From Apoda limacodes (lineage: Eukaryota > Arthropoda > Insecta > Lepidoptera > Limacodidae), in NCBI GenBank assembly GCA_946406115.1, contig OX291542.1, forward strand, positions 1,884,959 through 1,948,958: 64,000 bases of DNA. The letters run 5' to 3'. The notes under the pieces were generated by a model. The model ran no database searches. It had not been told where the DNA came from and was given only the letters and a program-made list of their open reading frames with translations. This document shows positions 29,611 to 61,658 of the stretch, piece by piece. Within the stretch, counting starts at the first letter, position 1. Every line of letters begins with the position of its first letter. A program made the translations under genes and the position numbers.

Positions 29611-29784
29611 TATGTAAAATACACAAAGCCCATCATAAATCATATTTTTGAAAATTCTCGCCCGAATGCAAATATTGATTCACTTGTGCTTGCATAATCA
29701 TTACACACTGCTCCACGTACGCTGACAACTTCTCTGTATGTGATACCCATGCACTTTCATTGTTATGTTAATAGATTTCTCGTG

Positions 29785-29819
29785 TATATATAGCCAGGAG
29801 GAACTGTGGTAACTTCAGT
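29785..29819 (+). promoter_or_regulatory. TATA box and initiator of the secreted-protein gene
   Basis: TATATATAG at 29785-29793 and the arthropod-type initiator TTCAGTG at 29814-29820 place a start site at A29817. That is 32 bp after the first T of the TATA box, the expected spacing. The predicted 5' UTR is only 24 nt before the ATG at 29841, which has A at -3. A compact TATA/Inr pair is common in strongly and tissue-specifically expressed insect genes. Confidence 0.75.
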
Positions 29820-29840
29820 GGTATTTGTAAAACGCTCACG

Positions 29841-32800
29841 ATGAATTATTCTGTGTTCCTCCTTGCGATCTTGGTAAAAATATTAAATTATTACTTATTT
29901 TCGATCATGTTTAGGATTTCGTACCCAAAGGATTTCAAAGCTACCTCATTACATTACCAAGGCTGAGCTGACTGTCTGTCTGTCTGTCTGTCTGTCTCTG
30001 TCTGACCTTTAAAGGCCTATCTATAATTGTTATGTAATTTTTATGTGTTTTAGTGTTTATGTGTTACTATGGTAGATTTCTCGTATCTCTCTAAGTAATA
30101 AAAATACCGCTAAGTGCGTGTCGGACTTCGCAGTTCACACATTAAGGGTTCCATACCAAAAGTAGAACATAGGCCATCCGAATGGCAGAATTCATAAGCA
30201 GTAGGTGAGTGAATCCCTTCTGTGCTATGCATTTGACCGCAAAATCAAATTGGTTGTTATAGGAAAAATAAGGAAATTTAAAAAAAAAATGATTTATTAA
30301 TATATTGGTTTTCTAGTAAAATGTACATAAAAAATAAACATTTCACCAAATTTCAAGTTCATAGGTAAATAGGAAGTTTAAAAATTGAAAAAAGAGTGGA
30401 TGCGCGATGACCGATAAGTTTGTCATATGATTGCTGTCGATTTATCAGAAATAGCTTTATCTATATATTTTTATTCAATATTTTCATTTCTCTATGTAAA
30501 AAAGGTATTCAAACTGTAAATGTTGATAATATGAAACTAAGGTCTGTCCCGCTCCGGTACTAAGTAAATGCAGTGGTCCGTCTCGCTCCGGTACCTACTT
30601 ACCGCTCGACTAATCGTGCGCCTTACCTTACCTTTACCTTCTTATTTTTGCAGGTAAGCTTCGTGGCCTGTCAACCTTGTGACAGACAAAGTCAGGGTAA
30701 GTGTTATATTGTATATGAGATTATACGACTGAACTGACTTTGTGTTTTTGCATTTAGGGTTCCGTACCCCAAGGATGTCAACGCGTTGTGTGCTGTCCAT
30801 TACCTTTATGAACTTACCATATTACATCAAAATATTAGGGTAAATGAGTTAAAATGACCTATTAAATTGTAAAAAGATATTAAATATAAATTTGCTTATT
30901 TTTCAATTTACTTTCGCATAACGATTTAGGCATAACTTTAATGGCATAATAATACTGTACATAATAATACTGTACATAATAATACTGTACATAATAATAC
31001 TGTACATAATAATACTGTACATAATAATACTGTACATAATAATACTGTACATAATAATACTGTACATAATAATACTGTACATAATAATACTGTACATAAT
31101 AATACTGTACATGATATTTTTTTGCATACAGTTTAGATAAGCTTAATTATTATGTTGGCTATATTTTGTTGAAATATGCCGATGATTATTCAAGATGTCG
31201 GGAAACTGGGAGCTTTACATGGCTAGCACTGGCTAAGAGTTTCATATATTTCTAACAAATGGCAGTGTAAGTTAGTTTATACTCTTAAACATGTCCGGAT
31301 TGGGATAAATATCAATGGGAATTAAATCCACGCTGGTGTAGCCGTGGGTATTTGCTACCCCTTTGTTGTAACAGATATATATCAAATTTAAGGGCAGAAA
31401 GAACAACGTCTGCCGGGCTAGCTAGGTAATAAATAAATAAATCTATATATATAATGAAGTCAGTTAAAATGAACCCGTTTCCCTTAGTCAAAACATAACT
31501 TCCGAACGACTGTACCAAATTGGATAATGCTTTTTTGTTGTATTCATTATTGTTAGGGAAAGGTTTTTATAAAAAGGGTTAAGTGCGAGTTGGACACGCG
31601 CACTTAGAGCAAATCGATTTGCTATTGTAATGAAATTTTGGTAAGTTGCTTTGCACACTACGGGGGAGGTTTCTGAATTAGTACAACCCTTTCAAAATAG
31701 GTGGCGCGCCAGTTGTTTTAAAAACGAGCAAGACGTTCGTCGGGTCAGCTTGTTGGATATAAATATCAAAATATATTATTGAGCGCTAAAATCGTAAAAA
31801 AAATAATGAAATATCGATGAATTCCAAAAGAAAATAATAATGTAAATCGATTTTATGGGAAGAAATACAAAAACAAAATGTATACATTACGTGAATTTTT
31901 ATAGTTTTATTTTTTCACGATATTTCAAATTGCAAAGTTGGAATGTTTGTGGAGACATTGTATAAATAATAAGCGTCAAATTAAAAACTTAGGTATCTAT
32001 ACTTTTTTTTCTCGTTTATTCCCGCAGAATACGTTGGTGTAGTCAGTTTATATAAATTTGGTCAATACAATACACTTTTTCAATGATTATTAAGAAAATG
32101 TAGTTTGCAAAGTAAAAAAAAATTTCGATTATTCCATTTTTTTTCAATTTTTAAGTAAGTATATGTGTTATATATTATATTTGCTGGATGACCATACAAT
32201 GTTTTTTTTAATTCAAAAAGTAGATTTAGACGCATAAAATGAGCCATTTTTGAATATTAAATCAAAAAAATGTTAAATGCAACCTGAAGTTGAGGGTAGT
32301 TTTCGGCCTTCCAAGACAATAAAACGTTAATTTCTTGAAAATGGCTCAATATTTTAATTTCAAAAATTTGGTGGTTATTATATGTATTTTGAAGATATTT
32401 TTTTCTAGATGTATGAAAATCAGAACAATTTTGCGGACCTGAAAAATTAAAAAACGAAGAAAAAATCCAAAAACGGGTTATTTGCAAATATCTCGAAAAT
32501 TTTGAGGTTATGGTAAAAAGTGTCTTCTACAAAAGTTGTAAATGTTTAGTATTGTTTTAAAGATTCACGGTTAATATCACTATTACGCATAATGTTATAT
32601 AGGGTTCTTACATCTCCACACCGCCAGTCCCACTTAAAATTTGGAAGAGGTACGGGGATGATGTATTTTGAATATTGAAGGATGGAGAAAAAGAGATAAA
32701 GGAGTGTTTAGATTATCTTAATGGCATCCACAGTAACATGCGGTTTACGGTAGAAAGAGAACAAGAAAGATTGTTGGCGTTACTGGATCTTAAAATAACG

Positions 32801-35800
32801 GTGAAAGTAAATAGGATTCTTAGCCATACAGTTTACAGAAAGCCAAATCACACTGATCGGTACCTTCATGCGACTTCACATCACCACCCCCGCCATCTTA
32901 ATGCAGTAGTAAGCTGCCTTACCAATCGGGTATTCGACTTATGTGATGATGAACACCTTCCGAAGGAATTACCAAAGGTATAGGAAGTGTTAAGAAAAAA
33001 CGGATACCACGTGAAAGGTGTGCTCCGCAGATCTAAGAAAAGCCAGTCCCTAGCTAATAGGGTAGAACGTCAGCCCACACTTTTACCGTATATTAAAGGA
33101 GTAACAGGTAAGTTCGGCAAGAGATTGAACAAATAAATTTGGAAAATCCAAAAGTGCACGCCTCATAGCGGTCATTCACATTTTAAAAAAAAATTCTAAA
33201 ACAAAAACTCAAGTTTTTTAAAATAAAATAACAAATAAGGTGAGGAAAAAATATACTATAAAATAAAAATAAAAAATATATATATAGATATACAGTATAC
33301 AGTGGTATATTAGTTTTTTATAAATTATAATTAAACGACAGTACTTAGAACGCTAATATTAACTAGGAATCAGCACAGTGTAATACTTTATATATTAAAA
33401 ACAAAAGTATTCCGGTAAGATGAATTTTTCGACCAATTTCTCTGCCACATACATGGTCACATAAACACAGACTCACGGACGTCCAAAAATGATTAGTTTT
33501 AATGTTATTATTTATTATATTAAACAAATTAATTGTTTATAAAATGTACCATATGTGCTAGACAGATTATTTAACTTCATATTAGTGCACTCATATTATC
33601 CTGTAAGTGTTATATTAAAAAAAAAAAACGTCATTTAAGTTTCGAAAGACTGGGTTTTTTGACATGTCGAGAGTAGAGCACTACCTCACCGCTCCGCTTA
33701 AGAGGCGTGCAATATGCAATAAATACCGTATTTACTCCCTTAAAAAAAATCGCACAAAGCCTGCGTTCCCCTAAGGACAGTTTACCGCTGGAAAATCCGG
33801 GTGTATACAAAATAGACTGCAGTAGCGGCAGTGCATGGAGAAACAAAAAGATCCATCGCGTGCCGCATGAACGAACATATTAAGGCTGTTAAGAACAATG
33901 ACAGACAGAAGTCGGACATTGCTGATCCTTTACTGGATTTCGGGCCCTAACCGTTGGATCGAATTTCACAATCCACAAATACTGTCGACAGAACGCCACT
34001 ATGTGCCTAGACTAGTTAAAGCTGCAATTGAAATTTATTACTATATAAACTTAAATGGGGAAGATGGGTTTAAATTGTCGAATACGAGGAATCCAGTGTT
34101 AGTAAAAACAGTCAAAAAGTAGTACGTTCCGAAAAACGCAGTGACACAGTGAGTATATACTGTCGTGGTGACTTGCGAGTGAGTTCTAGTAGTTCCGTAA
34201 CAAAACGAAAAAGAAAGAGGGCAGATAGATATAATTGCCCATAGACTTTGTGCAAACTCGCAAGTCCGCCAGTCATCCCGCGACCATGGTGCTTGCAACA
34301 GCACCGAAATATCGGCAGCTCATCTCCTCGGCTAATCACGGTAAGAACCCGGTATATCATTATGTGTAATTGTAAATGTTAACAATTACTACTACAACGC
34401 TACGTTTAAGTATAGCGTAAACTGTACTGTTGGCACGTTATACGTTGTCTATATATTTTTCATAGTTTTATTCCCTCGCATAAAATAAAAAAAAATATGC
34501 GACTGAAAAATGAACCTATATAATATAAACACATGTTTATAAAGTATCTTTTTTGATTTTCTTAGGTTTTGTTTTAGGTAGGCATTGTAATAAATATAAA
34601 GAAATACTTTAGAAAATTTTATTTTAATTTAATTACACGTTAACATGTAAGAAAATTAACTAGTTTAGTATTGGTTAAAATAAAACAAGTTTCTGATATG
34701 ATATCAGTAATAAATATATCGTTTATAGTTATGTTAACGGACATAAACTAGTTGATCATTTTAATCTTATAATTTCTAACTGACCTTAACTAGTCAAGCG
34801 ATTTAAACATATCAGATCGATTGTCCGCTCGCCATTGTTTTAAAGATTTCCTTTAAAATCTGATAACGAAGTTTGTAGTTCTTTATAAATTTATGAGTAG
34901 TCAGACTAGCACCATTAGGGTTTTGGACTAAACAATAACAATCAATCGCAATAGTCGACAGGTTGACAATGTAACAGTTTTTAATTAATTAAGAAATACC
35001 TGGAATTTGTAAATTTGGCACGGTACGGAAATTTGATTTTTCTCTTCCTCAGTACTATTGACCTTAACCGTTGTACGAATAAAGATGACCTTACCAAAAA
35101 GGCGTTAAAGATTGTTGGCAATGATTTTCAAAGTTGGATTAGTGAATATGTGGATGAACCGATTATGAAGTTTTTTGTCTGACAGCTTAAAGAAAGTCTT
35201 TTGGGCTGAAAAGTTTAAAACAAGAAAAACATTTAAATATACGATATTAAAAAAAACACATTATTCAAAAAATATATTATCAGCCACTGATTTGTCTATT
35301 TGTATTTTTACAGATAACGAAAACTGGACTTCTGATGACAAAAAACGTTCTAGAGTTGGTAATGGTCGTGTCAATGAAAACGTCAATGTTGACGTAGAAA
35401 ACTTATATAGCAAAACTGATGACTATGATAGTAACGACGACTTAACACGTTCAGAAAGTAGAGCAGAAGACGAAGAGTATTATAAAGATCAAGATGCAGA
35501 TTTTGGTAACCAAAACAGAGTTGATGAAAAATTAGACTCTTCTAATGATTACGACGGTTATCGAAATTCTAATGGTGTTGTTCAAATTGGAAATTACAAT
35601 AACAAAATCTATAGAAACAATGACTCATATAATAAGCGCGAATCCGCAGACCATAGCTACAGTAAAGATTTAGATATATCTAATAATCGCTATAGTGATG
35701 AGGTTGAGAATAGAAATGTCGAAAAGAATGTCTATAAAAACAAGGACTCATATAATGAGCGCAAATCCGAAGATAATAGCTATAGTCAAGGTTTAGATGT

Positions 35801-38800
35801 ATCTAAAAATCACTATAGTGATGAAGTTCAGAACAGAAATGGCAAAAATAATGTCAATAGAAACGATAACTCATATGATGAGCGCAAATCCGTAGACCGT
35901 AGTAAAGATTTAGTTGTATCTAAGACTAATCAATATAATGATAATTATTATGGTAAGGGCAACACTAACGAAGGAATATCTGAAGGGCACAGATCGGTTG
36001 ATAATAATTGTTACAATAAAAATCGGTCAGGGTCATCTCACAATGGAAACAACAACTCAAATGTTTACAAAAATAGTGACAAGGAATCAGGACTGGTGGG
36101 TAAGTATTTTGAATCTAACGATACTCAAACTCGCACTCAACTCGCACATTAACTAAAACCAAAAAAAAGCCACAAAAGCACAACAGTGCGGCAATTGTTA
36201 GTATCTTTTCAACACACTTGCTCGTAAAGTGACTCTTATTGTACTGCCTTTGCTTATTATATATATATATAGTCGGTGGTGGTCGAGGGGTTTAAATTTC
36301 ACTTCACGTCCCAAGTGGCGGAGGTTCGAACCCCGGGTCGGCGTGTACCAATGAGTCTTTTCTTAATTTCTCAAGTACACTGAGTTATTTATTCACACCA
36401 CTGGCTTTTCGGTGAAGGAAAACATCATGAAGAAACCTGTATACGTCAAAAAAAAAAAAGACGTATGCGAAGTCCACAATCTGCACTGGGCCCGCGTGTG
36501 GACTATGGCCCAAATCACCCTCTATATATATATATATATAAATATATAATATAATTTAGATTAGATAATATATAATTTAGATTTTGTTCATGTCACTTTT
36601 CTGATTATTCGTATGGTAATTTTATATAGTTTATTTGATTTTGCATTGTGCTTTTTATATTTTAAATCCAACTGTTTTTTTTAGACGGTATCGTGAAAGC
36701 CAAGTTAGGTAAGTTTCTACTTTATATTCTCAAGTACAATACAAAAAACAAAAGGTATTTAAAATGTTTACTTGTAAGTATATTTAAACGCATTAATCTT
36801 AGAAACTACTTGTCCTATGGTTACATAGTCTATTCTTTAAGTAAAGTTATGGTCATGGTAAAGCTATGGTTACATAGTCTATTCTTTAAGTAAAGTTCTT
36901 ACTAACACTATCTGTTTCTGGTGGTTACCTCGCGTTTTATAATTGCTCCTCTCCTAAGGATTGTAGGGTGAAGTTAAATGTAGGGAATCTCAACTCAAGC
37001 AAATTATGAGAGAAATACGAAGCGCCATCTATTTATCAATAAGCGCCATCTAGCGGAAGCGTGGTTGCATCTCACTTTTCTGTACGGTTAACTTATATAC
37101 GATATTATATATTACATACTATTTTGAACGCGTACTTATATATGGTACGTACGGATTTTGAGAAATTATACCTGTTGGATACTGACCTTATGTGATAGCC
37201 GTCACGACGTAGGGGTGACAGGCCGTATGTCCTATCATCAGTAGGGGCCTAGTAGAGGAATTTTACTTTGAGGGTAGCAAACAGAAGGGATATCAAAGAA
37301 ATTAATAGTAAACTGAAAGCAGTCGACGTTACCGTGGCGTCGCTGCCAACCGACGTGTAGTACCAAAATCCGACTCAACCCGGTCAACCCGACGGTGTTG
37401 ATGCTGGGAAGGAGAAGCTGTCCGAAAAGTATGCACCTGATGCACTGTCCACTAGCACTTCACTAAAACCGTTGTGCCGGTGGACGAGATGTTCAATATT
37501 ATATAAAACTCTGATCACAGCAGTCCGTAGATAGGTATTCTGCGTTCCGAATTGCTAGCCGCGCAACCGTGTGTATGGATCTAACTTCAACTACGTTTCC
37601 GTACAAACTAGATTTGCACACCTGGCAGCGAGCAGTCGCCCGGTTAGTCCTATAAAGTGAAAGGGCGATACGTCATCGCTAGCCCGCTAGGTATGTTTAC
37701 CGAACAATCCCCCTATCTTATACCATAGCATAGTGTTAATACCATACAATAAAAAATAATACGGAGACTATGGTTAATTAGTGCTATCGTGTTTTTTTAT
37801 GTGGATTTTCCGTGAGATCGTCGATCAATGGAGACGTCTATCAAGGTCGCAATATTTATCATCTCAGCCAGAAGACTTTCACGACCGACACCGGCCACAC
37901 ACACACAACGACTGGTGTTGTGCCGTCTGCTTCCACTGACTTCCTGCGGCTTTAACCAGGTCGTCTGTCCACTTGGTAGGAGATTGTCCCACGCTGCGCC
38001 TTAAGGTGTGAGTTTCCCATTCGACGACTTGTGTTTCCCATCGCTGATCAGTTAGACGAGCAATGTGGCCATTCCATTTCCACTTCAGCTCGAATGTGAG
38101 TACAAACACAACAAAAATTAATAGTTTGACATTAGGTACCTACACTTTCATTATTTTTTTAATTTCTAGAAAGTCTACAACAGCTTTTGAGTGGAGGTAT
38201 GTATGATTTTTTAATTACTACTATATGGATTTCGATTATACTGTCACACCCATAACTATCATAATAACCCATAAGTAATCCAACATACATTTTGTATTTT
38301 ATTACTTATTTTTTTAAGAATATACCAGTAATTAAGTTTCAATAAATATTGTAAAAGTCAAAATGTAATTTATTTAGGTTTAATAAAAAACTAACTGTTA
38401 GACAAGTTTACTCCTCTACCAAATCGACATGTTTACACTTGCGCACTTGTTTACACTTGCGCACTTCATTAGCTAACTCTACCGAAAACAGCCTGAATAT
38501 ATCGAACTGATGTACCTCGGCTCGGTAATACCTACTCTTGGAAAAATAATACTTAACAATATTTTAGGTAAAAATATTTAATATTAATAACCCTTATTCA
38601 CTGCTTTGCTAATTGTGTAAGGTGTGAAAAAAAATCCCATATCTCTTACTTTGGCAAATTTATCTAAGTGTCCGGGTAACATGTTACAGATACCAGGAAC
38701 ACTTACATGATGATAAGTGAATAAATGTAAATAACATAAACGTTTTGACGACCCTTTTTAATGTGTTTTATCTGGTACTTATTTTTTTTAATAGATGTCC

Positions 38801-40342
38801 AAGGTTCATTTAAAACTGGATTCAATGGATTGTCAAACGGTAAGCTATGTTATAAATTATCGCATACACACATATACACAGCTCTTTAGATTTGAGGCTT
38901 TCCTCAAACTAGGAAACTCTGTGCTGTACCCTAACCCTGTGCTGAGTTGGTCAGAACCAACAATGCAGTAACACCCAAACTCTGTGTTGAGTTGATCAGG
39001 ACCAACAATGCAATAACACCTAAACCCTGTGTTGAGTTGGTCAGGTATACCCATAGTTTTATACCCTCTCGTACCTGCTGTTATAAAACTGTATCGGTTA
39101 TGTGTCTGTCGTAACATACCTTCAATATATTGGGATTGACTGTTTATAAATCTCTGGACCTAAAACTGTCTGATTGTTATGATAAAACTCAATACTTTCA
39201 GAATAGATTTTAATGTACCTTTTGCCAATCTATAACTTGAGATCCTACTTAAAATGCAAACTGCGTTTCACTCAAATCCATTAGATACTAGATGTAAAAA
39301 CGGTGCATGTGTGATTTTCGTAGACAGAATCGCAGGCAAAGCTAGTTTATAATAAGAACGACTAATAGTGGGATTCATGTTTTAAAACGTCATAACGTGG
39401 CTTGAAAGCTTGGTAACCAAATAACCATCCCTTTCTTTCTTATGTTCATAAAAGAGGGTATAAATAAAACAAGGGAGGTAGACGTTGGGTTGACCAGTGT
39501 TTGTGCCGAGAGTGAAAATTAACAATAGTGGCGTTTTGTTGACATAATGTACATAATGCGGTAATCCTACCAAAGAGAGTGAAGATTTGTACTGTGTTAT
39601 ACAGAATTTATATCTTTTTAACTTGGCACGGTTATGACGTTAAACGCATTGAAGCAGTCAACAAAACGCTCTTAATATAATCTGTTTTCCAGACGCAAAC
39701 AAGCTTACATCTACAGTGACCGACTCCTTGGGAGGCGTGCAAACAATAAGTAAGTAATCTTACAAAATATGTTGCCTACTTACAGACATAAGGATCATGC
39801 TAGCAAAATATATCTGAGTTACATAAGCAAACTGAAAATAGACAAGGAATAAGCTCTCTTTCAGTTTTGTAAGTCCAAGGAAGTACAATAAATATCATTA
39901 CGACACTTATCTCCGAAGGATTGACCAAAGATAATAATGGAAGCTGAATGTTACGGCGAACCGTCAATATTGCACCTTTTATGCAGATAGTAATTTGTGT
40001 CTCAAGTCATATGAAATTATAGTAAGCCGCCAAATATTTGTCTCGGGATTTGGCGGCAAAAATTACCAATGTATTACTTTTATGCTAGCAATTTTTTCAT
40101 TCCAGAAGATTCAAATTTGTATTTTGCGTTAAAAAAATATAAATGTAAACAGGTACTCTATGGTCTGTGGACTCATCCAGACTCATCAATAACCTTCATC
40201 AGTAGAAACTAACATTTTCCGATTTGGGATCATTTTTTTTAGTGCCAAAAAAGTCATCTAACATGACCGTAATGCAATAATGTAATATTTGTAATTTTTT
40301 TTTCTAGCTGGAGGATTGGTCGGAGGTCTTTTAGGTGGTTAA
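29841..40342 (+). CDS. Secreted Asn/Ser/Asp/Tyr-rich repetitive protein, 8 exons, 349 residues
   Basis: Coding exons: 29841-29873, 30654-30696, 35314-36099, 36685-36708, 38170-38196, 38795-38839, 39693-39749 and 40308-40342. Each internal boundary has GT-AG sites, usually gtaag donors and T-rich acceptors. Intron 1 is phase 0 and the other six are phase 1, so the exons join into one uninterrupted 1050-nt frame. The protein begins [17 protein letters not shown], a clear signal peptide probably cut after Cys17, followed by QPCDRQSQ. Residues 27-287 come from exon 3 and are hydrophilic, rich in N, S, D, Y, K and E, with three ~41-residue repeats. The remaining ~60 residues come from small exons and end [11 protein letters not shown] do not recognise the family. 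Composition and secretion suggest a silk, glue or other extracellular structural protein, but that is inference. Confidence 0.85.
30654..30696 (+). CDS. Exon 2: end of signal peptide and mature N-terminus
   Basis: Acceptor tttttgcag ends at 30653. The exon reads [14 protein letters not shown] and ends with a single G before GTAAGT (phase 1). Joined to exon 1 it completes the hydrophobic core and cleavage region. The two cysteines (17 and 20, CxxC) are almost the only ones in the protein. Confidence 0.85.
30944..31112. repeat. 15-bp minisatellite (ataataatactgtac) x 11
   Basis: Eleven perfect copies at 30946-31110 inside intron 2 of the secreted-protein gene. Because 15 is a multiple of three, the minus strand is open as a repeated MYSII peptide. 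No other coding signal supports that frame. Confidence 0.95.
31113..32611. other. Intron 2 DNA with Helitron- or repeat-like fragments
   Basis: Contains aacaacgtctgccgggctagc (about 31403) and ttcgtcgggtcagcttgttg (about 31735), terminal-looking words I associate with common lepidopteran repeats, possibly Helitrons. It also has atgaacccgtttcccttagt at 31470. The rest is AT-rich and unassigned. Confidence 0.35.
32612..34360 (+). pseudogene. Penelope-like retroelement, 3' half, broken
   Basis: From 32621 the plus strand reads WKRYGDDVF and then a stop, the YxDD catalytic motif of reverse transcriptase. It continues [20 protein letters not shown], then [20 protein letters not shown] and [20 protein letters not shown] to about 33110. 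After an AT-rich gap (33130-33640), 33734-33905 reads [25 protein letters not shown] and [16 protein letters not shown]. This is a GIY-YIG nuclease of the kind fused to Penelope polymerases, with VYKI at the GIY-YIG position. The C-terminus reads [20 protein letters not shown] (about 33977-34036). Frameshifts, stops and the gap make it dead. The tail to 34360 looks like its 3' UTR. It lies in intron 2. Confidence 0.8.
33130..33640. other. AT-rich segment interrupting the Penelope-like element
   Basis: The Penelope reading stops at about 33120 and resumes near 33734. The intervening ~500 bp has no homology to the element that I can see. It contains ta-rich runs (33275-33310) and an A run at 33616-33627, suggesting an insertion, but the boundaries and target duplication are unclear. 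Confidence 0.4.
34361..35313. other. End of intron 2 with an unexplained coding-like segment
   Basis: Mostly AT-rich intron. At 35053-35178, directly after a good acceptor (tttttctcttcctcag), a frame reads [20 protein letters not shown], then [20 protein letters not shown] and a stop. It has no phase-compatible donor for the exon at 35314, so it is not included in the gene. It might be an alternative terminal exon or chance. Confidence 0.35.
35314..36099 (+). CDS. Exon 3: large hydrophilic repeat exon
   Basis: Acceptor tatttttacag ends at 35313 and donor GTAAGT starts at 36100. The exon is 786 nt, phase 1 at both ends. It encodes residues 26-287, starting [20 protein letters not shown]. Three tandem repeats of about 41 residues are encoded at 35601-35717, 35718-35840 and 35841-35963, sharing the pattern N-x-DSYN-[ED]RKS...SYS-x-[DG]LD[IV]S...YSDEV[EQ]NRN. 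Tyr, Asn, Asp, Ser, Lys and Arg dominate and hydrophobic residues are scarce. An open frame runs upstream to an ATG at 35175, but that stretch has intron-like composition and is better explained as intron. Confidence 0.85.
36266..36535 (+). repeat. tRNA-derived SINE
   Basis: ggtggtggtcgaggggttta is an A-box-like segment and gaggttcgaaccccgggtcg holds a strong B box (GGTTCGAACCC). It is followed by tcggcgtgtaccaatgagtc, gaaggaaaacatcatgaaga and gtgtggactatggcccaaat, features I recall in lepidopteran SINEs, and then a ta-rich tail. It lies in the intron after exon 3. Confidence 0.75.
36685..40342 (+). CDS. Exons 4-8: phase-1 mini-exons encoding the C-terminal tail
   Basis: Five small exons of 24, 27, 45, 57 and 35 coding nt (36685-36708, 38170-38196, 38795-38839, 39693-39749, 40308-40342). 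The four exons 36685-39749 are symmetrical phase 1-1 modules, so any could be skipped without frame loss. The encoded pieces are [51 protein letters not shown] and [11 protein letters not shown]. The first four begin at a split Asp or Glu codon. The tail is less polar than exon 3 and alternates helix-friendly and Gly-rich parts. Every acceptor is T-rich and every donor is GTAAGY or GTATGT. Confidence 0.8.
36811..36898. repeat. ~34-bp direct duplication
   Basis: tatggttacatagtctattc followed by tttaagtaaagtt occurs twice about 45 bp apart, in an intron. Confidence 0.85.
37865..38109 (-). pseudogene. LINE C-terminal fragment, reverse strand
   Basis: The minus strand reads [20 protein letters not shown], then [20 protein letters not shown] and [11 protein letters not shown]. 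This is the typical extreme C-terminus of arthropod LINE endonuclease/reverse-transcriptase proteins (KW.W.GHIAR...GRPP.RWTDD). It lies in the intron between exons 4 and 5 of the secreted-protein gene, opposite in orientation. Confidence 0.75.
38925..39050. repeat. ~58-bp tandem repeat, 2-2.5 copies, in an intron
   Basis: Units share ccctgtgctgagttggtcag, aaccaacaatgcagtaacac and ccaaactctgtgttgagttg with substitutions. Confidence 0.85.
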
Positions 40343-41221
40343 TCAAAAACAAGCTGCTGATTGTATGTATGTAGGTAATATTTTTATTTCTACATTAATT
40401 TATAACAATATTATATTAAAAGGCTTACGTAATACATAGTTATCGCTTTGAGATTTTATTTATAATGAAGATGGATCACGATTTGTTAGACACAATTCAA
40501 TTTCTTTTGCTTTATTTTTTTAGATGAACGTTGACCAACCCCAACCCTATCGTCTGCTGCGATGGTTACAAACTACTGCATAGCAATATTATGTTTTATC
40601 ACATAACGTTATATAATAAAAGTTAGACAGTTATGTATTAATTTGAATTTTTTTCAGATGTATATATTCGTGTGTATGTCTTCATTTGACTGCATTGTGT
40701 GACGTCACATTGTGTTGTATGTACGAAACGTAAACGTAAAGCCTAATAAAAATACTACCTGTTTGTTGTGAAATTTCCTGTAAAAATTACAAATAATAAT
40801 AAATGTGCATTTCTAAATTCTGTTTTTTATGAAGCATTAAAAACCCTAATTTTCGGTTGGTGGTTTACAAGAATAAATTTTTAGTAAGTTTTTGTGTGTA
40901 ATTTGTTAATTATAAAACATAAAACTAATGAAGACACCCAATTAAGTATAAGTTTGATCGCAGACAAAGGTTATATACATATATACAAACTCGTATCGAC
41001 AAGATTAAGGAATAATTGCATCAGCACACAAAAACATCAGCACACAAAAACAACATTAAAAAAGAAATTTAATCAAAGTACTATAAAATTAAATAGTATA
41101 AATCTCCCAAGAAAATGTCATCATATTACATTACTTATACAAAAATTTAAGCAAAAAATAATAATACATAATAAAACAAGGTACCTGCTCGTACTCAAGC
41201 CACATTTACATTTACGAGTAT
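40343..41221 (+). other. 3' UTR region of the secreted-protein gene and downstream AT-rich DNA
   Basis: After the stop, a possible 3' UTR intron could run from a GTATGT donor near 40362 to the acceptor ttttttttag at 40523. A candidate poly(A) signal lies at 40615-40620, with further AATAAA-like words at 40745 and 40873. The ORF at 40894-41235 is Lys/Asn/Ile-rich without motif and not called. Confidence 0.4.
40615..40620 (+). terminator. Candidate poly(A) signal AATAAA
   Basis: First AATAAA after the stop codon at 40340-40342, about 275 nt downstream, or about 110 nt if the proposed 3' UTR intron is removed. Confidence 0.5.
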
Positions 41222-41650
41222 ATTATACCTCGTGACGGGCATGCCGCCACTCAGGCGTTCTAGTATATACCTCGTGACGGACATGCCGCCAATCAGGCGT
41301 TCTAGTATATACCTCGTGACGGGCATGCCGCCACTCAGGCGTTCTAGTATATACCTCGTGACGGACATGCCGCCACTCAGGCGTTCTAGTATATACCTCG
41401 TGACGGGCATGCCGCCACTCAGGCGTTCTAGTATATACCTCGTGACGGACATGCCGCCACTCAGGCGTTCTAGTATATACCTCGTGACCGGCATGGCGCC
41501 ACTCAGGCGTTCCAGTATATACCTCGTGACGGGCATGGCGTCACTCAGGCGTTCTAGTATATACTCCGTGACGGGCATGCCGCCATTCAGGCGTTGTAGT
41601 ATATACCTCGTGACGGGCATGCCGCCAATCGGGCGTTCTAGTATACGGAG
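41222..41650. repeat. 42-bp minisatellite, 10 copies, open on both strands
   Basis: The unit is gttctagtatatacctcgtg then acgggcatgccgccactcag and gc. Because 42 is 3 x 14, both strands are open: plus strand repeats MPPLRRSSIYLVTG (frame 41232-41738) and minus strand repeats MPVTRYILERLSGG (41195-41680). The first six copies alternate gggcatg and ggacatg, so the higher-order unit there is 84 bp. No splice sites or known motif support translation. Confidence 0.95.
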
Positions 41651-41879: not shown

Positions 41880-42897
41880 TGTTAGATTTCAATAAACCGT
41901 ACATACATACATTACCTGTACCTTGTTTGTAATGATGCTCAATATTTAGTTAGATTTCAATAAACCGTACATACATACATTACCTGTACCTTGTTTGTAA
42001 TGTTGCTCAATATTTAGTTAGATTTCAATAAACCGTACATACATACATTACCTGTACCTTGTTTGTAATGATGCTCAATATTTAGTTAGATTTCAATAAA
42101 CCGTTCATACATACATTACCTGTACCTTGTTTGTAATGATGCTCAATATTTAGTTAGATTTCAATAAACCGTACATACATACATTACCTGTACCTTGTTT
42201 GAAATGATGCTCAATATTTAGTTAGATTTCAATAAACCGTACATACATACATTACCTGTACCTTGTTTGTAATGTTGCTCAATATTTAGTTAGATTTCAA
42301 TAAACCGTACATACATACATTACCTGTACCTTGTTTGAAATGATGCTCAATATTAAGTTAGATTTCAAAAACCGTACATACATACATTACCTGTACCTTG
42401 TTTGAAATGATGCTCAATATTTAGTTAGATTTCAATAAACCGTACATACATACATTACCTGTACCTTGTTTGAAATGATGCTCAATATTTAGTTAGATTT
42501 CAATAAACCGTACATACATACATTACCTGTACCTTGTTTGTAATGATGCTCAATATTTAGTTAGATTTCAATAAACCGTACATACATACATTACCTGTAC
42601 CTTGTTTGTAATGATGCTCAATATTTAGTTAGATTTCAATAAACCGTACATACATACATTACCTGTACCTTGTTTGTAATGATGCTCAATATTTAGTTAG
42701 ATTTCAATAAACCGTACATACATACATTACCTGTACCTTGTTTGTAATGATGCTCAATATTTAGTTAGATTTCAATAAACCGTACATACATACATTACCT
42801 GTACCTTGTTTGTAATGATGCTCAATATTTAGTTAGATTTCAATAAACCGTACATACATACATTACCTGTACCTTGTTTGTAATGTTGCTCAATATT
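41880..42897. repeat. 68-bp minisatellite, about 15 copies
   Basis: The unit is gttagatttcaataaaccgt, acatacatacattacctgta, ccttgtttgtaatgatgctc and aatattta. Copies differ mainly at tgatgctc/tgttgctc and tttgtaatg/tttgaaatg. Each unit carries an AATAAA word. Confidence 0.95.
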
Positions 42898-42997
42898 TTT
42901 TTCAACACTCATTCGCAGCGCATTCATCTTTACAACATTATGTTAATTTTTCTATTATTTTATCGCGGCTAAATGCCACAGTCAAAGAAATTAAAAC

Positions 42998-48059: not shown

Positions 48060-50640
48060 CGAAAAAATGGAATCCGAAAATTTTGATATAAAAACTGCTA
48101 TCTCCCTGTTGCCAATTATGACAAGCTAGGAGCAGGTAACTACCCAACTGATTGATAGCATTCAGTTATACGGGTCCATGCTCAACGACGCAGCCAAAAA
48201 GTAATTAATAGAATTCGTCCTTAAGACACGGCTCTTAGCTAGCGCCAGACTTAGGCTTAAATCTTATTGCGTGACTGTAGACTCACTGTTGAAGGACATG
48301 CGCAAACACCTTATTCAAAAAAAATCAGCTGTCGCCCTTCAGTCGCAAATGTTGACTACTAGGCAGGGACGTAGGTCTATAGAGAAGTTTGGCTCAGATT
48401 TGGAAGAGTTATTTGTAAACTTGACCTTAGCCCAAGCAGATGGAAACGAACAAAAATATGAGGTTCTCCGTCCACTGAACGAAAAGATAGCGATAAAGCG
48501 TTTCGCAGACGGTCTTAGCAATTCCCGTCTCAGTACCATTATCGCTTCCCGTCCGTTCCATTCCGGAAGGAAGCTATTAGGGCCGCTTTTGACGAACATT
48601 CGTTAGCCCCTAGCGAAGAACCGGTCACGCACTTTAAGAGCAACCGCGGCATGAGACATAGCACCCGCGGTAGAACCGCTGCAAGTTCCAACTACAATAG
48701 GTATAATTCGCAAGTTAACCAATACATAACAGTTACCTTACCTTTTCATAACAGTTCCGGATTTTTCTGATCTCGTAATCATGGAAAGCGCACATGAGGC
48801 TCCATACGTTATAGAGGTCACGAAAATTTTCACAAAACATGTAGTTTGTCGAAAAACGGGATAACCCTATGTATGCCCACAGGCAACGGCCCCAACAGGT
48901 ACACGCAAGTACACGTTTTCACGTATCCCGCCTCGTTGTGAAATTATGAAATTGATTCCTTGTTCGGCAAGCGAAGATTGTTTAGTTTTAGCTCACGAAA
49001 TTCTAAGGTTTTCCATTGCCGGAATAGTAGCGAAACCTTATCAAGGACGCATTCCTGTAAAAATGCTAAACACAAGAGACCGAGAAGCCAAAATCTATTA
49101 ATCTCAATTACAGGTTTAATCTATTTACAAACTTCGACGTTTTTTGATTTAACAAGGAAAATAAATCCGTGGATAGGGTTAAGCCTCTGTTCGAAATACT
49201 CGATTTAGGCTACCTAAATAGGGAAGAGCGTTTAAGTATTCAACAGATTTGTGCGAAATACGCTAATGTATTTCATTTACCAGGGGACAATTTATCTGTC
49301 ATTAACTTGATGGAACATAACATTGTTTTAAAAGAAAACGTTACACCTATTTACGTTAAGCCTTACAGAGTCCCCCAAGCTTTAAAAAGTGAGATAGAGA
49401 GACAGGTACAAGACATGCTCAAAAATGATATCATAGAGGAGACTGTATCAGAATGGTAGAGCCCAGTTTTGTTAGTAACCAAGAAAGCTGATAAATCGAA
49501 TCAGGAAAAGTGGAGATTAGTTGTCGATTATAGACAGTTAAACAATAAAATACAAGACGATAAATTTCCATTACCTTACATTACCGAGATATTAGACTCA
49601 TTGTCCGGTAGCATTTATTTTTCAAAATTAGACCTTTCTCAGAGCTACTGCCAGCTATCCTTAAATCCAGAATCGCGTTAATATTAAGTTTAAACAAGAT
49701 GTATCAGCTTTCTTTGGACAAGAGCTCTCGTAAGTGTACCGCGTTTACCACAGGAAAACAGTACCAAATGAAATGCTGTCCCATGGGTCTCAAAACAAGT
49801 GCAAGTGTTTTTTCCAGACTTATGACCATTGGAATGGCAGGACTTAATTTTGACAAGTGTTTTATTTATTTAGACGATTGCGTTGTCATAGGAAAATCTA
49901 TGGAACATCATAATAAAAATCTCATATGCGTACTGAACCGATTACGTCAGGTCAACCTTAAATTGAACCCAATAAAGTGTGAGTTTCTTAACAAGAAATT
50001 ATTTAATTAGGACACCAGATTAAATCACAAGGTATATTTCCAGATCCAGAAAAAATTCAAATTATTAACAGCTATCCAAGGCCAAATAATGTAGACGAAG
50101 TAAAACGATTAGTTGCGTTCGCAAACTACTACCGTCGCTTCATATCACGTTTCGTTGACATAGTATTTCCGTTAAACGCCTTATGCAAGAAAAATCCTAT
50201 ATTTGAATGGACTAGCGATTGCGAGAACGCATATCTAAATTTAAAATCAGCTTTATTTAACCCACCAGTTTTGGATTATCCCGAGTTTTCCGAGACCAAC
50301 ACCTTCCATTTACAAACCGATGCTTCAAAAATAGGACTAGGTGCAGTTTTATCAAATTGCAATGGCAAAGTCGTAACTTATACTAGTAAGAGCTTAACAG
50401 CAGCTCAGACAAGGTATCCCATTATAGACCTTGAGTTACTAGCCATTTTATGGGCAGTACGTCACTTCAAACCGTATTTAAATGGTAGAAAATTTAAAAT
50501 CTTTACCGACCATAGGCCCCTTGTTTATTTATTTGCCTTAACCGACCCATCCAGCCGACTGACAAAGTTTAGTTTGTATTAAGAGGAGTATGACTTTTTT
50601 CGTTCCGGGCCGACTCAATGCAGCTGCAGACTACATGTGA
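48060..50640 (+). pseudogene. Ty3/Gypsy retrotransposon, gag-pol remnant
   Basis: Gag-like sequence runs from an ATG near 48067 through 48606, with in-frame stops and a segment reading FADGLSNSRLSTIIASR. The polymerase starts near 49169. Visible blocks are VVDYRQLNNK, FSKLDLSQSYCQL, CPMGLKTSASVFSRLM, the catalytic FIYLDDCVVIG (about 49862), FANYYRRFI and a tether-like FEWTSDCENAY. The RNase H has LQTDASKIGLGAVLS, DLELLAILWAVRHF and KIFTDHRPL. The reading changes frame twice (near 49690 and 50010) and meets stops at 49457 and 49679. It ends with a VPGRLNAAADYM motif at about 50637, and no integrase or 3' LTR follows. The protease is not clearly present. Confidence 0.85.
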
Positions 50641-57240: not shown

Positions 57241-57668
57241 TCATATTAGAAGATTATATAACAGTGTTCTTGAAGAAAATCATAAGAATTCAATCTCGCA
57301 AGAAAGATCCAGCGGCTTGTTATACAATTACTGTTCTCAACCTGCCCGGGAGTCCCGCTGTGAAGCTGTTACAAGGAGGAAAGTATTTTCTATATAAGAG
57401 TAATAATATCGTCATTTTGGGTTCTAGTAGAACTTATATTTCTTGTAAAATAAAAAGTACGCCCGCCGCCATTGTTACGTTGGCAACCTTGGATGACGCC
57501 GACTCAAGCCGAGTGGTAATTCTTCGCTTCGCGCGCTTTTGGTGTGGATTGGCAGCATTGAGCAGCTGTCAATTTCGCAACTTCAATAAAGCAAACAAGA
57601 AGTAAACAAACCAATATAGTGCAGTGCAGTGCGTTTATTATTTACAAGTGTATATTGTTGTGTTCATT

Positions 57669-58310
57669 ATGGCAGAACAACTTGCTCGTTTACGTACTAA
57701 ACGCGGTTCGTTGAAAGGAATAATTACAAGGATCGAGACCTTTGTAAATGACTCTGCAAGTCTGGCCTCTTCCAGTAGAGTGATGCTGGAGGCAAGACGG
57801 GACAAACTTGTAACTACTCTCAAAGAATATGAGGAAATTAATATCGATATATCATCAATATGTTTAGAACAGGAAGATAAAGAAAACGTTTCTGAAATTG
57901 AATCTAAATATTACAATGTATGTTCAAAAATTAATGAAGCTTTGAAATTATTGTCCGATAATGAGAAAGCTCAATGTAGCAATGTGTCCAACTCGAAGCT
58001 TCCAAGTATTGACATCTCAATTTATGATGGTAAAGACTTCACTAAATATAAGCCATTTATAGATTTGTTTTCAGCTTTAATTGACAACAATAAAACTCTG
58101 TCTAATATTCAGAAACTTTTTTATCTTAGGAAATATTTAGTATCAGATGCATTAGCAGTCATTGTAAATTTACCATTAGTAAACGAATCCTATCCAGAAG
58201 CCTTACATCTTCTTAAAAAACGCTTTGACAATAAGCCTCGACTTATTTCTAATCATATAAATGTTCTCTTGGACTTCCTTGTATGCAAAAAGGAACAGCA
58301 ATCAATTTAA
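57669..58310 (+). CDS. BEL/Pao gag N-terminal region (DUF1759-like)
   Basis: The start chosen is the ATG at 57669 (MAEQLARLRTKRGSLKGIIT) rather than the in-frame ATG at 57624, because this is the usual BEL/Pao N-terminal sequence. Residues near 120-200 contain IYDGKDFTKYKPFIDLFSAL, then FYLRKYL and the PEALHLLKKRFDN block typical of the DUF1759 gag domain. The frame ends at TAA 58308-58310 after LVCKKEQQSI. The expected continuation lies one base back (-1) at the aaaaagg run near 58287, where the next frame takes over with KGTAINLRSF. A homopolymer error, a mutation or programmed slippage could explain this. Confidence 0.85.
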   Translation: MAEQLARLRTKRGSLKGIITRIETFVNDSASLASSSRVMLEARRDKLVTTLKEYEEINIDISSICLEQEDKENVSEIESKYYNVCSKINEALKLLSDNEKAQCSNVSNSKLPSIDISIYDGKDFTKYKPFIDLFSALIDNNKTLSNIQKLFYLRKYLVSDALAVIVNLPLVNESYPEALHLLKKRFDNKPRLISNHINVLLDFLVCKKEQQSI

Positions 58311-60550
58311 GATCTTTTACTTCTCAAATACAACAACAGTTGTATGCGTTAAAAAATTTAGATCAATCGGTCGATGACTGGGATATGATATTAATATCTA
58401 TTTTAAGTAGAAAATTAGATAACTTTACTAATAGGGCTTACCATCTTGATAAGGTGAAGTCAGACAAGGTGCCTACCTTATCTGAGTTTTTAATTTTCTT
58501 AGAAAAGCGTGCTATAGCGCTAGAGGACAGTCCTCAAGACAAAAGTTTTCACTATGAGAACAAGTTTAAGTCTAATTCATTTCAAAAGGTGAGTAATATT
58601 GCCACTGATATACCACATTCTAAATGTATGTTTTGCGAAAAGACGGACCATCTGATCTTTTTATGCCCTAAATTTAAAATGTCTACAGTTATAGACCGAC
58701 TTGCATTTGTCGAGTCACAAAAATTGTGTGTCATCTGCCTTAAAGCCCATGCTGGTAAGTGCAAATTTAACTTCAAATGTAGACATTGCAAACAGAAACA
58801 TAATTCCCTCTTGCATCAAGATGAGTCAAAAGAAACAATGCAAACACCACTGCAAGAGAAGACAGTAAACTGTTATTCAAATATTAGAACTTGTAATAAT
58901 GTCTTGCTTCCAATTGTCAAAGTAAAGGTTATTGACAATAGTGGTAATGAAATGTTTGTAAAGGCCTTGTTAGATAGTGGAAGTCAAGCATCATTGGTGA
59001 AAAGTAGTCTAGTAGAAAAGTTAAATTTAAAAACCTTACCACAGAATACAAATATAATAGGTATTGGCAATAAAATCAATAAAGTAAACAGAAGTGTATA
59101 TCTATCCATTTTTTCATGTATTAACAATAATAAATGTAAGGTAAATTGTCACATTGTTCATAACATTACAGCTATGTTACCGCAGCATAATTTTGATGCA
59201 TCGGTTTTGAATGTTCCTTATGATATCAAACTTTCTGATGAACATTTTAATGAGCCGTCAGAAATTTCTATTTTGCTAGGAGCTGATATCTATTTCAGGT
59301 GCTTACTAGAAGGCCACATAAAATTGGAAAATGGTTTAGTGTTACAGAATACTGTTTTTGGATATGTTGTTGGTGGCAGTCTAAATTGTATTATAGCGTG
59401 TAATGTTTCAAATACTATGGTGTCTAACTTTGTCACAAGTGATAAAAATGTGAATAACTTAGAAAACATTATGGAGCAATTTTGGCTGTCTGAAAAAATC
59501 CCTGAAGTAGCCAAAAATAATAATCAAATCCCTGAATTTAAAAAAGCTGAAGAAATATTCAAAAGTTCAGTAAAATTGGAGCATAACCAGTTTCAAGTTG
59601 ATATTCCACTTGCAACTCCGGTGAATGAGTTGCAACTCGGTGACTCCTTCTCAGTGGCACTTCAGAGATTTTTATCATTAGAAAAGAAATTCAAGAATGA
59701 GAAATCATATTTTGAACAGTATAAAAAGTTTATTGATGAATATATCTCAATGGGACATGCTAAAATAGTAGACATAAATACTTACAATCTTTTTGATGAT
59801 CCGGTATACTTTCTCTCGCATCACGCAGTGCTGAAAGAGGATAGCAGGACAACTAAAATAAGGGTCGTTTTCAATGGAAGTATGTTGACTAAAAATAATC
59901 TTTCCCTTAACTCTGTTATGCTGAATGGTGATATCCCTCAGAAAGAACTTTTTGATATCCTTATTCTTTTTCGAACATACTTATTTACTCTGATTTGTGA
60001 TATAGAAAAAATGTTTAGAAATATACTTATAAATGATAAACATAAATGCTTACAAAACATACTTTGGCGTGATGATCCATTGAAGCCCCTCAATTGTTTG
60101 CAGCTACAAACAGTGACTTATGGTTTAAAGGCATCCACTTACCTGAGTACTAGGTGTCTTGTAGAATTGGCATGTCGTTATGAGCATAAGTACCCACTTG
60201 CTGCACAGGCTATGCATTTTAATACTTACGTTGATGATATACTCGCTGGTTCTGACAGTGTCGAACTTCTTAAAGATCTGAAAAATCAATTGGTAAGTAT
60301 GTTAAGTTTAGGTGCTTTTAGACTACACAAATGGTGTTCTAATGTAGAAGAAGTAATCGCTGATATACCTGTGGAACAAAGATATTTCAATGAAATAGAT
60401 ATTAACAAAAATAACATTATTAAAACTTTAGGCATTAAATATGAAGTTGATACAGACTCTTTTACATTTACTTGTCCTGTTAAAAGTGAACATGATTTGA
60501 ATACCAAAAGAAGAATTTTAAGTTTCATAGGTAAAATGTTTGATCCTTAA
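58283..60550 (+). CDS. BEL/Pao gag C-terminus, protease and reverse transcriptase
   Basis: 755 codons. Positions below are codon numbers from 58283. About 20-90 complete the gag domain. A CCHC knuckle (CMFCEKTDHLIFLC) is followed by CVICLKAHAGKC and CRHCKQKHNSLLH. The aspartic protease active site is LLDSGSQASLVKSS with Asp231. The reverse transcriptase includes KIRVVFNGS, a LICDIEKMFRNI block, YGLKAST and the catalytic YVDD at about 649-652 (nt 60227-60238). The frame ends KMFDP then TAA (60548-60550). In the family the next residue is normally Leu, and TAA is one base from TTA, so this looks like a point nonsense mutation inside the polyprotein. Confidence 0.9.
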   Translation: MQKGTAINLRSFTSQIQQQLYALKNLDQSVDDWDMILISILSRKLDNFTNRAYHLDKVKSDKVPTLSEFLIFLEKRAIALEDSPQDKSFHYENKFKSNSFQKVSNIATDIPHSKCMFCEKTDHLIFLCPKFKMSTVIDRLAFVESQKLCVICLKAHAGKCKFNFKCRHCKQKHNSLLHQDESKETMQTPLQEKTVNCYSNIRTCNNVLLPIVKVKVIDNSGNEMFVKALLDSGSQASLVKSSLVEKLNLKTLPQNTNIIGIGNKINKVNRSVYLSIFSCINNNKCKVNCHIVHNITAMLPQHNFDASVLNVPYDIKLSDEHFNEPSEISILLGADIYFRCLLEGHIKLENGLVLQNTVFGYVVGGSLNCIIACNVSNTMVSNFVTSDKNVNNLENIMEQFWLSEKIPEVAKNNNQIPEFKKAEEIFKSSVKLEHNQFQVDIPLATPVNELQLGDSFSVALQRFLSLEKKFKNEKSYFEQYKKFIDEYISMGHAKIVDINTYNLFDDPVYFLSHHAVLKEDSRTTKIRVVFNGSMLTKNNLSLNSVMLNGDIPQKELFDILILFRTYLFTLICDIEKMFRNILINDKHKCLQNILWRDDPLKPLNCLQLQTVTYGLKASTYLSTRCLVELACRYEHKYPLAAQAMHFNTYVDDILAGSDSVELLKDLKNQLVSMLSLGAFRLHKWCSNVEEVIADIPVEQRYFNEIDINKNNIIKTLGIKYEVDTDSFTFTCPVKSEHDLNTKRRILSFIGKMFDP

Positions 60551-61099
60551 GGATTAATTGGTCCAGTTGTTGTTGTGGCCAAACTATTTATGCAAGAACT
60601 ATGGGCTTTAAAAATTGATTGGGACTGTTTACTTCCAACAAAACAATTAAGTACCTGGAACAAATTTTTAAAAAATTTAAGTGCAATGCAAAAATTTACT
60701 ATTAGTAGAGGTTTGAATAACCCTACTGCCAGGTTGATCCAGCTTATAGGATATGCTGATGCCTCCTTTCAAGCATTTGGATGTTGTCTATATCTCCGAA
60801 TTGTATCGGAGGATGGTAAAATAAGTGTTAATCTCCTTTGTTCTAAGTCAAGAGTTGCTTCTTTAAGTAAAGATTACACAATTCCGCAGCTTGAATTGAA
60901 TGCTTCGTTATTGTTGGCCCAGTTAAGTAATAGGGTTAGCCATATACTACAGTCTAGGTTTTCTCATGATATACTGCTTTATAGTGACTCACAAATTGTG
61001 CTTGCATGGATAAGTAGTGGTACAACAAAAAGCAATGCTTATGTTAATAATAGGGTCAATCAGATAAAAAAATTAACTATCCCATTGGTCTTATATTAA
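60551..61099 (+). CDS. BEL/Pao RNase H-like / Peptidase_A17-type region
   Basis: In the same frame as the upstream polymerase after the TAA. It starts GLIGPVVVVAKLFMQELWAL, the classic segment following FDP in BEL/Pao, then YADASFQAFGCCLYLR, TIPQLELNASLLLAQL and LYSDSQIVLAWI, with the acidic residues expected of RNase H. It ends at a TAA (61097-61099), but the homologous reading continues in another frame as YINSSNPADLLSRG, so a one-base shift lies near 61085-61095. Confidence 0.85.
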   Translation, partial: GLIGPVVVVAKLFMQELWALKIDWDCLLPTKQLSTWNKFLKNLSAMQKFTISRGLNNPTARLIQLIGYADASFQAFGCCLYLRIVSEDGKISVNLLCSKSRVASLSKDYTIPQLELNASLLLAQLSNRVSHILQSRFSHDILLYSDSQIVLAWISSGTTKSNAYVNNRVNQIKKLTIPLVLY

Positions 61100-61658
61100 C
61101 AGTTCCTCAAATCCTGCGGATTTGCTTTCAAGAGGGTGTGACCCACATAAATTGCACTCACAAAAATTGTGGTGGCATGGTCCTCCTCATTTGTCTCTTC
61201 CAGACTTTAACCATCAGCAGTTTGATAGCTCACCTATCAAAACAGATGAGCATGAAGCTAAAACTGAAATATGCAGTAACATTAACAAAGTAGAGTCCGA
61301 TTTTAATCTTTTTAATAAATATTCAGATTTTAATAAACTTCAACGAATAGTAGCCTATATTTTCAGATTTTATAACAATTCTAAGTTCAAAACTGCTAAA
61401 ATTGATGGTGCCCTCACAACTCTAGAATTGAATAAGTCAATGCTGCTTATAATAAAAAATGTTCAAAGTAATTATTTTGCCAAGGAGATAGATGCACTTG
61501 ACAGAGGCATTCCTATAAAATCAGCACTAAGTAATTTACATCCATTTTTGGATCAAGAAAAGTTACTAAGAGTAGGAGGTAGACTACAAAATGCCAATAA
61601 TATAGCATATGATAAAAAATATCCTATAATCCTACCAAAATCTTGTCATATCACCTGA
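61100..61658 (+). CDS. BEL/Pao linker and integrase zinc-binding N-terminus
   Basis: Opens with SSNPADLLSRGCDP and WWHGPPHLSLPD, both typical of BEL/Pao between RNase H and integrase. It then has a lysine/asparagine-rich linker and RVGGRLQNANNIAYDKKYPI with ILPKSCHIT. The TGA at 61656-61658 is bypassed by a one-base shift to the frame that continues LIIQREHLRLLHAGP. Confidence 0.8.

Follow-up and report, generated by a model that had tools for sequence, protein, structure and literature searches.

A small secreted repeat-protein gene of Apoda limacodes and its giant sister, candidate silk coat genes with a shared promoter, signal-peptide exons and tail

The window analyzed here, a 64,000-nucleotide stretch of the genome of Apoda limacodes (C2:1884959-1948958; the genome comprises 800 Mb in 31 contigs), carries on its forward strand what appears to be an intact protein-coding gene with eight exons, the predicted product of which is a secreted, repetitive protein rich in Asn, Ser, Asp and Tyr. 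The gene had been proposed in a preliminary description made from the letters of the window alone. The larger fact, which that description overlooked, is that the gene is one of a family: a giant relative lies 72 kb away, and another contig, C10, carries two further copies of the promoter and first exon. Judged from sequence, the window gene is a small member of that family. The best explanation of its product, which we hold with somewhat better than even confidence, is a sericin-like silk coat or glue protein; the step from secretion to silk is one that we infer. The protein would work like a sericin, and membership in any named sericin family is not claimed.

Results

All 8 coding exons were re-derived from the sequence, each where the preliminary description had placed it. 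The coding part of exon 1 (29841-29873) encodes the first half of a signal peptide and ends in a phase-0 donor, and exon 2 (30654-30696) encodes the rest of the signal peptide and the start of the mature protein, ending in a phase-1 donor. Exon 3 (35314-36099) is a hydrophilic, repetitive core of 262 codons that begins with D and ends with GLV, with both borders in phase 1. It is followed by four microexons, namely exon 4 (DGIVKAKL, 36685-36708), exon 5 (ESLQQLLSG, 38170-38196), exon 6 (38795-38839) and exon 7 (39693-39749), and by the coding part of exon 8 with the stop codon (40308-40342). A polyadenylation signal, AATAAA, lies at 40615-40620. All 7 introns are GT-AG; the donors read GTAAG or GTATG in 6 of the 7 and GTAAA in the first, and intron 1 is in phase 0 while the other six are in phase 1. 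The joined frame of 1,050 nt encodes 349 amino acids and a stop, and the sister genes described below match its borders and phases. A possible intron in the 3' untranslated region (approximately 40375-40523, GTAATA ... TTTTTTTAG) would give a ninth, noncoding exon. Intron 2 contains a 15-bp tandem array (30945-31116; 11.5 copies, 99% matches). A part of intron 3 (36270-36540) has, by eye, the look of a tRNA-derived short interspersed element (GGTTCGAACCCC box); ARAGORN finds no tRNA gene, and scanning the window for Rfam families and tRNAs gave no hits.

The predicted protein is hydrophilic and acidic (39.3 kDa, isoelectric point [pI] 4.88, grand average of hydropathy [GRAVY] -1.31), with 15.5% N, 12.0% S, 10.9% D and 6.3% Y; its last 64 residues have a GRAVY of +0.21. 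A tandem repeat of 123 bp, or 41 residues, runs in frame for 2.4 copies inside exon 3 (35608-35897; 83% matches). The signal peptide, split over two exons as in the preliminary description, was read directly from the sequence, with no signal-peptide program, and is kept in the sister genes. A search of the 349-residue product against Pfam returned 0 families at E up to 1.

The giant sister gene (C2:1987003-2046672) lies outside the window, downstream of the window gene and on the same strand, with the two start codons 72 kb apart. It was found as a frame of 8,659 codons in a list of open reading frames covering 100 kb on either side of the window. Exon 1 (C2:1987003-1987035) encodes MKSSVYLFAFL and has the donor GTAAG; exon 2 (C2:1989984-1990029) reads VSFVACHPWQESQNQ, and across the two exons the signal peptide is MKSSVYLFAFL/VSFVACHP. 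Like window exon 3, the core exon begins with a phase-1 Asp codon, here after TTTTTTACAG, and it ends in GGACTATTGG followed by GTAAG. This core is a single exon of 25,899 nt without a stop, of 8,633 codons compared to 262 in the window gene, and consists of approximately 200 repeats of 39 residues; it holds 195 SSET motifs, which are spaced by exactly 39 residues in 186 of 194 cases. Tail exons downstream of the core read GVERALGGGVNN, VVKDVESTVEQLGGAAAA and, last, VKGVLSGLLGGGGNRREPPLGL, so that the protein ends in GLLGG. A strict pyrimidine threshold found none of the short exons, and looser scans found one, then the others and the last exon; the giant gene may have further microexons that these scans missed. 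Two microexon candidates, GLTQQFNGL and EFSADGAA, were not accepted. As modelled, the giant protein has 8,711 residues and a mass of 997 kDa, with a pI of 8.8 and a GRAVY of -1.81, and 2,254 residues of its core matched no Pfam family at E up to 0.01. Long open frames, the longest of 1,208 codons, also run along the opposite strand of the giant gene and probably result from its codon use. One frame occurs twice in the interval between the window gene and the giant gene, at C2:1970593 and C2:1977105, 6.5 kb apart, and intron 2 of the giant gene holds an inverted pair of the same frames, at C2:1995634 and C2:1997147.

The two C2 genes were compared part by part, with random segments for the promoter, exon 1 and exon 2 drawn from the same 314 kb, genes included. 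The promoter together with exon 1 aligned with a score of 153 (best of 300 random segments, 58), and exon 2 scored 95 (best of 1000, 57). The 5' border of the core exon scored 49, a value that 0 of 1000 random segments reached (best 41), and its 3' border scored 40, reached by 1 of 1000. The tails scored 62, which none of 5000 shuffles reached (best 59). Within the tail, the last 4 residues of window exon 6 align with the end of GVERALGGGVNN in the giant gene, exon 7 aligns with VVKDVESTVEQLGGAAAA, and the coding part of exon 8 aligns with VKGVLSGLLGG; for exons 4 and 5 no counterpart was found in the giant gene. When the exon 3 protein was searched against its own genome, only exon 3 itself was recovered (6 candidates scored), and a search with residues 1-454 of the giant core recovered only the giant exon (94 matches).

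The preliminary description had also named a TATA box and an initiator at the correct spacing, and both are borne out. The TATA box, TATATATAG (29785-29793), is 56 bp upstream of the ATG, a distance that is equal in the giant gene, and the initiator-like TCAGT (29815-29819) follows it at approximately 30 bp, with similar bases aligned in the sister promoters. Two POU-type candidate sites were also seen, an octamer, ATGCAAAT, upstream of the promoter (29666-29673) and ATGTTAAT immediately upstream of the TATA box (29765-29772). At the place aligned to the latter, the giant gene and one C10 gene have ATGCAAAT and the other C10 gene has ATTAGAAT; across the surrounding 314 kb, the exact octamer has a density of 0.07 per kb.

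Further family members were sought across the genome with an exon 1 pattern and an exon 2 pattern, both written from the two C2 genes, which are hits by construction. The exon 1 pattern with up to 3 mismatches gave 4 hits, 2 on C2 and 2 on C10 (control, 0). The exact degenerate exon 2 pattern likewise gave 4 hits, 2 on C2, 1 on C10 and 1 on C13, and its reversed control gave 0. The C10 exon 2 hit reads VSFVACRPCDSDSQ with acceptor and donor conserved, and it scores 86 (against the window gene; random maximum of 1000, 28) and 75 (random maximum 30). The C13 hit was set aside as chance-like, with corresponding scores of 18 and 17, under the same maxima. The two C10 copies of exon 1, at 24680076 on the minus strand and 24735900 on the plus strand, are 56 kb apart and point away from each other. 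Both read MKSSVFLLALL with donor GTAAG, and the C2 promoters can be aligned with those of both copies. The minus-strand member is located at C10:24677694-24680104, and in the 4.5 kb past its exon 2 frames did not exceed 91 codons and an exon 3 could not be recognized. Four promoter-exon 1 units were found in all, with exon 2 located in 3 of them, the exception being the plus-strand C10 copy. The C10 genes are known here from promoter, exon 1 and one exon 2, and the family tail was read in one sister only. Taken together, these data indicate that A. limacodes has at least three and probably four such genes; across the family the promoter and the secretion exons appear to be retained and the repeat core to vary.

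What appears to decide that the window gene is real is this conservation of the promoter, exons 1 and 2, core-exon borders and tail in sister genes. Exon 3 sits within a stop-to-stop frame of 327 codons, and an open frame of its kind has a probability of 1.5e-10 at one given place, calculated from a stop-triplet rate of 6.7%, as found in the introns and flanks. A scan of the 4,250 bp downstream of exon 3 for microexons with strong splice sites and phase 1-1, with thresholds chosen after the exons were known, gave 4 candidates, exactly the four proposed internal ones; in 108 control tiles, taken from both strands with the two silk-like genes excluded, there were 0, 1 or 2 candidates in 82, 19 and 7 tiles, respectively. 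The preliminary description had relied on a frame that survives seven splice junctions. The frame holds, but as stand-alone proof the argument does not, because short phase-compatible exons can often be picked.

Codon changes were counted among the repeats of both genes. Between copies 1 and 2 of the window repeat, 17 codon changes are nonsynonymous and 4 are synonymous. For the giant gene, 180 repeat units with a regular next unit, from the 195 SSET sites, gave 591 codon differences from the unit consensus, with 25 synonymous to 187 nonsynonymous in unit type one (expected 65:268) and 102 to 277 in the second unit type (expected 65:267). None of these differences was a stop, though approximately 5% of single changes would create one. 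Because the units are not independent, the giant counts show that the frame is maintained, without clear evidence that each residue is under selection.

The Fibroin_P25 family (PF07294) marks silk-making Lepidoptera. Four stretches on C28 matched it above the cut-off, and none did in 14 control genomes; on that ground the animal is most likely a silk-making lepidopteran. Two of the 4 stretches contain one stop codon, perhaps beyond exon ends, and they represent a candidate gene only.

A satellite-like array of 68-bp units (41881-42898; 15 copies, 98% matches) lies 1.3 kb past the polyadenylation signal of the window gene and is adjoined by a 42-bp array (41224-41645) with open frames on both strands. 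Reverse transcriptase and RNase H pieces of a retrotransposon occur in two frames at 49612-50582 (plus strand). At 57606-62791, also on the plus strand, pieces in several frames match DUF1759, a DUF1758 peptidase, integrase zinc binding, integrase core (just below the cut-off) and DUF5641, which we take to be another retrotransposon, of BEL/Pao type. Beyond the window, at C2:2071000-2079200, a run of frames resembles by eye a Polinton-like or DNA-virus-like element with polymerase-, protease- and phospholipase-like pieces.

Discussion

That the product is secreted, repetitive and structural, as first described, is consistent with the conserved signal-peptide exons, the 41-residue repeats and the sister with approximately 200 repeats of 39 residues. 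If the protein is a silk coat or glue component, a TATA promoter with a POU-type site would drive a transcript whose first two exons encode the signal peptide, and the mature protein would consist of a hydrophilic Asn/Ser/Asp/Tyr-rich repeat core and a short, less hydrophilic microexon tail ending in GLLGG. It would presumably be made in the larval labial (silk) gland and deposited around the fibroin core as a coat or glue that is soluble in water, with the charged core binding water and neighboring chains and the tail perhaps aiding storage or assembly. The giant sister would be the major bulk coat protein, and the window protein a minor component or one belonging to another life stage. Over time the family would keep its expression and secretion cassette and its tail, with a repeat core that grows, contracts and diverges in sequence.

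Sericin genes are described as clustered and lineage-expanding, with tandem repeats in large exons (PMC9745057, PMC9684489), and Yponomeuta sericins have GRAVY values of -1.09 to -2.13 (PMC9684489). Both C2 genes have a hydrophilic tandem-repeat core in a large exon, and the N-terminal signal peptide of sericins is present. With short signal exons, a large hydrophilic exon of repeats, a core that changes fast and a clustered arrangement, the genes resemble silk coat genes as described in these and a further source (PMC9745057, PMC9684489, PMC12661448). POU-M1 elements are described in the ser1 and fibH promoters of Bombyx (PMC5831788), and the POU-type site before the TATA box hints at a silk-gene-like promoter, which is suggestive only.

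Several points weigh against a role in the silk coat. Serine is commonly at least 20% among the sericins listed and reaches 12.0% in the window protein and 19.6% in the giant core; sericins under 20% exist, such as Ek-Ser1A (17.6%) and Ek-Ser1B (14.6%) (PMC9745057). The CXCX/CXCXCX motif of the Ser1, P150 and Muc1 subfamily near the C-terminus is absent, with no cysteine in the tail of the window protein or of the modelled giant. Landmarks of sericin clusters were not recognized by eye in the 314 kb, where DNAH2 and rtoA were not searched for and where the lists of open reading frames (at least 110 or 100 codons) consist for the most part of repeat frames and frames that resemble transposons. 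Comparison of the two C2 repeat cores gave no convincing relationship (z of 3.0 for the N-terminal part, where the best of 300 shuffles equaled the observed score, 1.9 for the C-terminal part and -0.3 for the middle). There is no clear purifying selection at the protein level within the window or giant repeats. The POU site would be uninformative on where the gene is on, because POU-M1 possibly also represses ser1 (PMC5831788).

Alternatively, this could be a real secreted family that serves another gland or surface, such as egg glue of the accessory gland, saliva, the gut lining or the cuticle. We consider this unlikely, while giving it real weight: a signal peptide, repeats and charge fit any extracellular gel or glue, POU sites also occur outside silk genes, and the missing cysteine motif and low serine speak against a Ser1-type protein. 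However, a single 25.9-kb repeat exon behind short signal exons, together with the Fibroin_P25 matches, resembles bulk silk genes, and tandem repeats in large exons are what is described for coat genes, in a comparison literature that is all on silk (PMC9684489).

It is considerably less probable that the window copy is a shrunken, non-essential or dying member, open by chance or weakly used, with the giant and C10 genes performing the function. Its core has 262 codons against 8,633, its first donor (GTAAAAA) is weaker than in the three sisters, and between its repeat copies 1 and 2 nonsynonymous changes outnumber synonymous ones by 17 to 4. In contrast, its 8 exons, the splice sites of its 7 introns, its promoter and its poly(A) signal look intact, and the terminal exons hold both the frame and a sequence resemblance to the giant gene. 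That the eight-exon chain is a chance set of splice-like sites in noncoding DNA is scarcely credible, since phase-compatible microexons of 24-57 nt do arise somewhere by chance but the open-frame probability of 1.5e-10, the microexon scan against 108 control tiles and the promoter, exons, phases and tail shared with sister genes all count against it, and those sister-gene alignments already refute it unless they are artefacts.

Returning to the silk coat interpretation, what would be new is a kept cassette with a replaceable core, and a near-megadalton member. A bolder proposal, which we advance tentatively and at somewhat less than even confidence, is that these genes represent an undescribed lepidopteran silk family on two chromosomes, in which a POU/TATA promoter, a two-exon signal peptide and a GLLGG microexon tail surround freely replaced cores in members from 39 kDa to approximately 1 MDa, the tail being a new conserved assembly or storage module outside the cysteine-motif sericins. 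The rapid change of their cores makes silk coat genes difficult to detect in similarity searches. In the sister genes described here, conservation is far stronger in the promoter and signal-peptide exons than in the protein core: with one pattern of 21 bases and one of 29, the family was isolated from 800 Mb with one chance-like extra hit, which suggests a practical search across moths.

The preliminary description had proposed a protein search of the product. The search was run and returned no relatives, with none of 1,590 candidates at E 1e-3 for the window product, none of 51 at E 1 for its tail region and, for 1,200 residues of the giant core, none of 7,994 scored at E 1e-3; a single database of uncertain insect content was used, so these nulls are weak evidence of novelty. 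No description of the gene family was found in searches of the open-access literature, where sequences are not searchable.

Among known systems, sericin 4 of Yponomeuta cagnagella (YC-Ser4), compared by description only, is likewise a silk gene candidate with 8 exons, Asn as the commonest residue, strong hydrophilicity (GRAVY -2.13) and an acidic pI (4.23); it differs in having 731 amino acids and 28.9% Asn, compared to 349 and 15.5% for the window protein (PMC9684489). P47 of Galleria mellonella and Ephestia kuehniella, also compared by description, is an acidic cocoon protein, with 16.1% N, 13.2% E and 9.0% S in Galleria; it is E-rich whereas the window protein is D/Y-rich, and it has a mass of 55 kDa in Galleria and 8.3% N in Ephestia (PMC9745057). 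Bombyx mori Ser1 shares the features of a repetitive secreted coat protein with 38-residue repeats and POU-M1 promoter elements (PMC5831788, PMC9745057). The Ser1, P150 and Muc1-like proteins carry near their C-terminus a cysteine motif that the window protein lacks, and most of them are richer in serine (31% in the Bombyx Ser1 repeat versus 12%) (PMC9745057).

The giant sister resembles the heavy-chain fibroin FibH in being a giant repetitive secreted protein behind a short signal exon. FibH, however, has two exons, the first of 39-45 bp, whereas the window gene has 8 with a first exon of 33 bp, and in Lepidoptera FibH is rich in Ala, Gly, Ser, Pro, Gln and Asn (PMC11241164). The genes described here further differ in having a separate exon 2 and, after the core, five (window) or three (giant) short exons. 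In the survey values covered here, for moths and caddisflies, heavy-chain fibroins reach 746 kDa and 912 kDa, respectively, and the 8,711 residues of the giant protein fall within their range of up to 8,773 (moth) and 9,027 (caddisfly) (PMC11241164). If the silk coat interpretation is true, a coat protein of approximately 1 MDa would outweigh the heavy-chain fibroins surveyed there (PMC11241164), and the modelled 997-kDa sister, if expressed in silk, would be among the heaviest known silk proteins.

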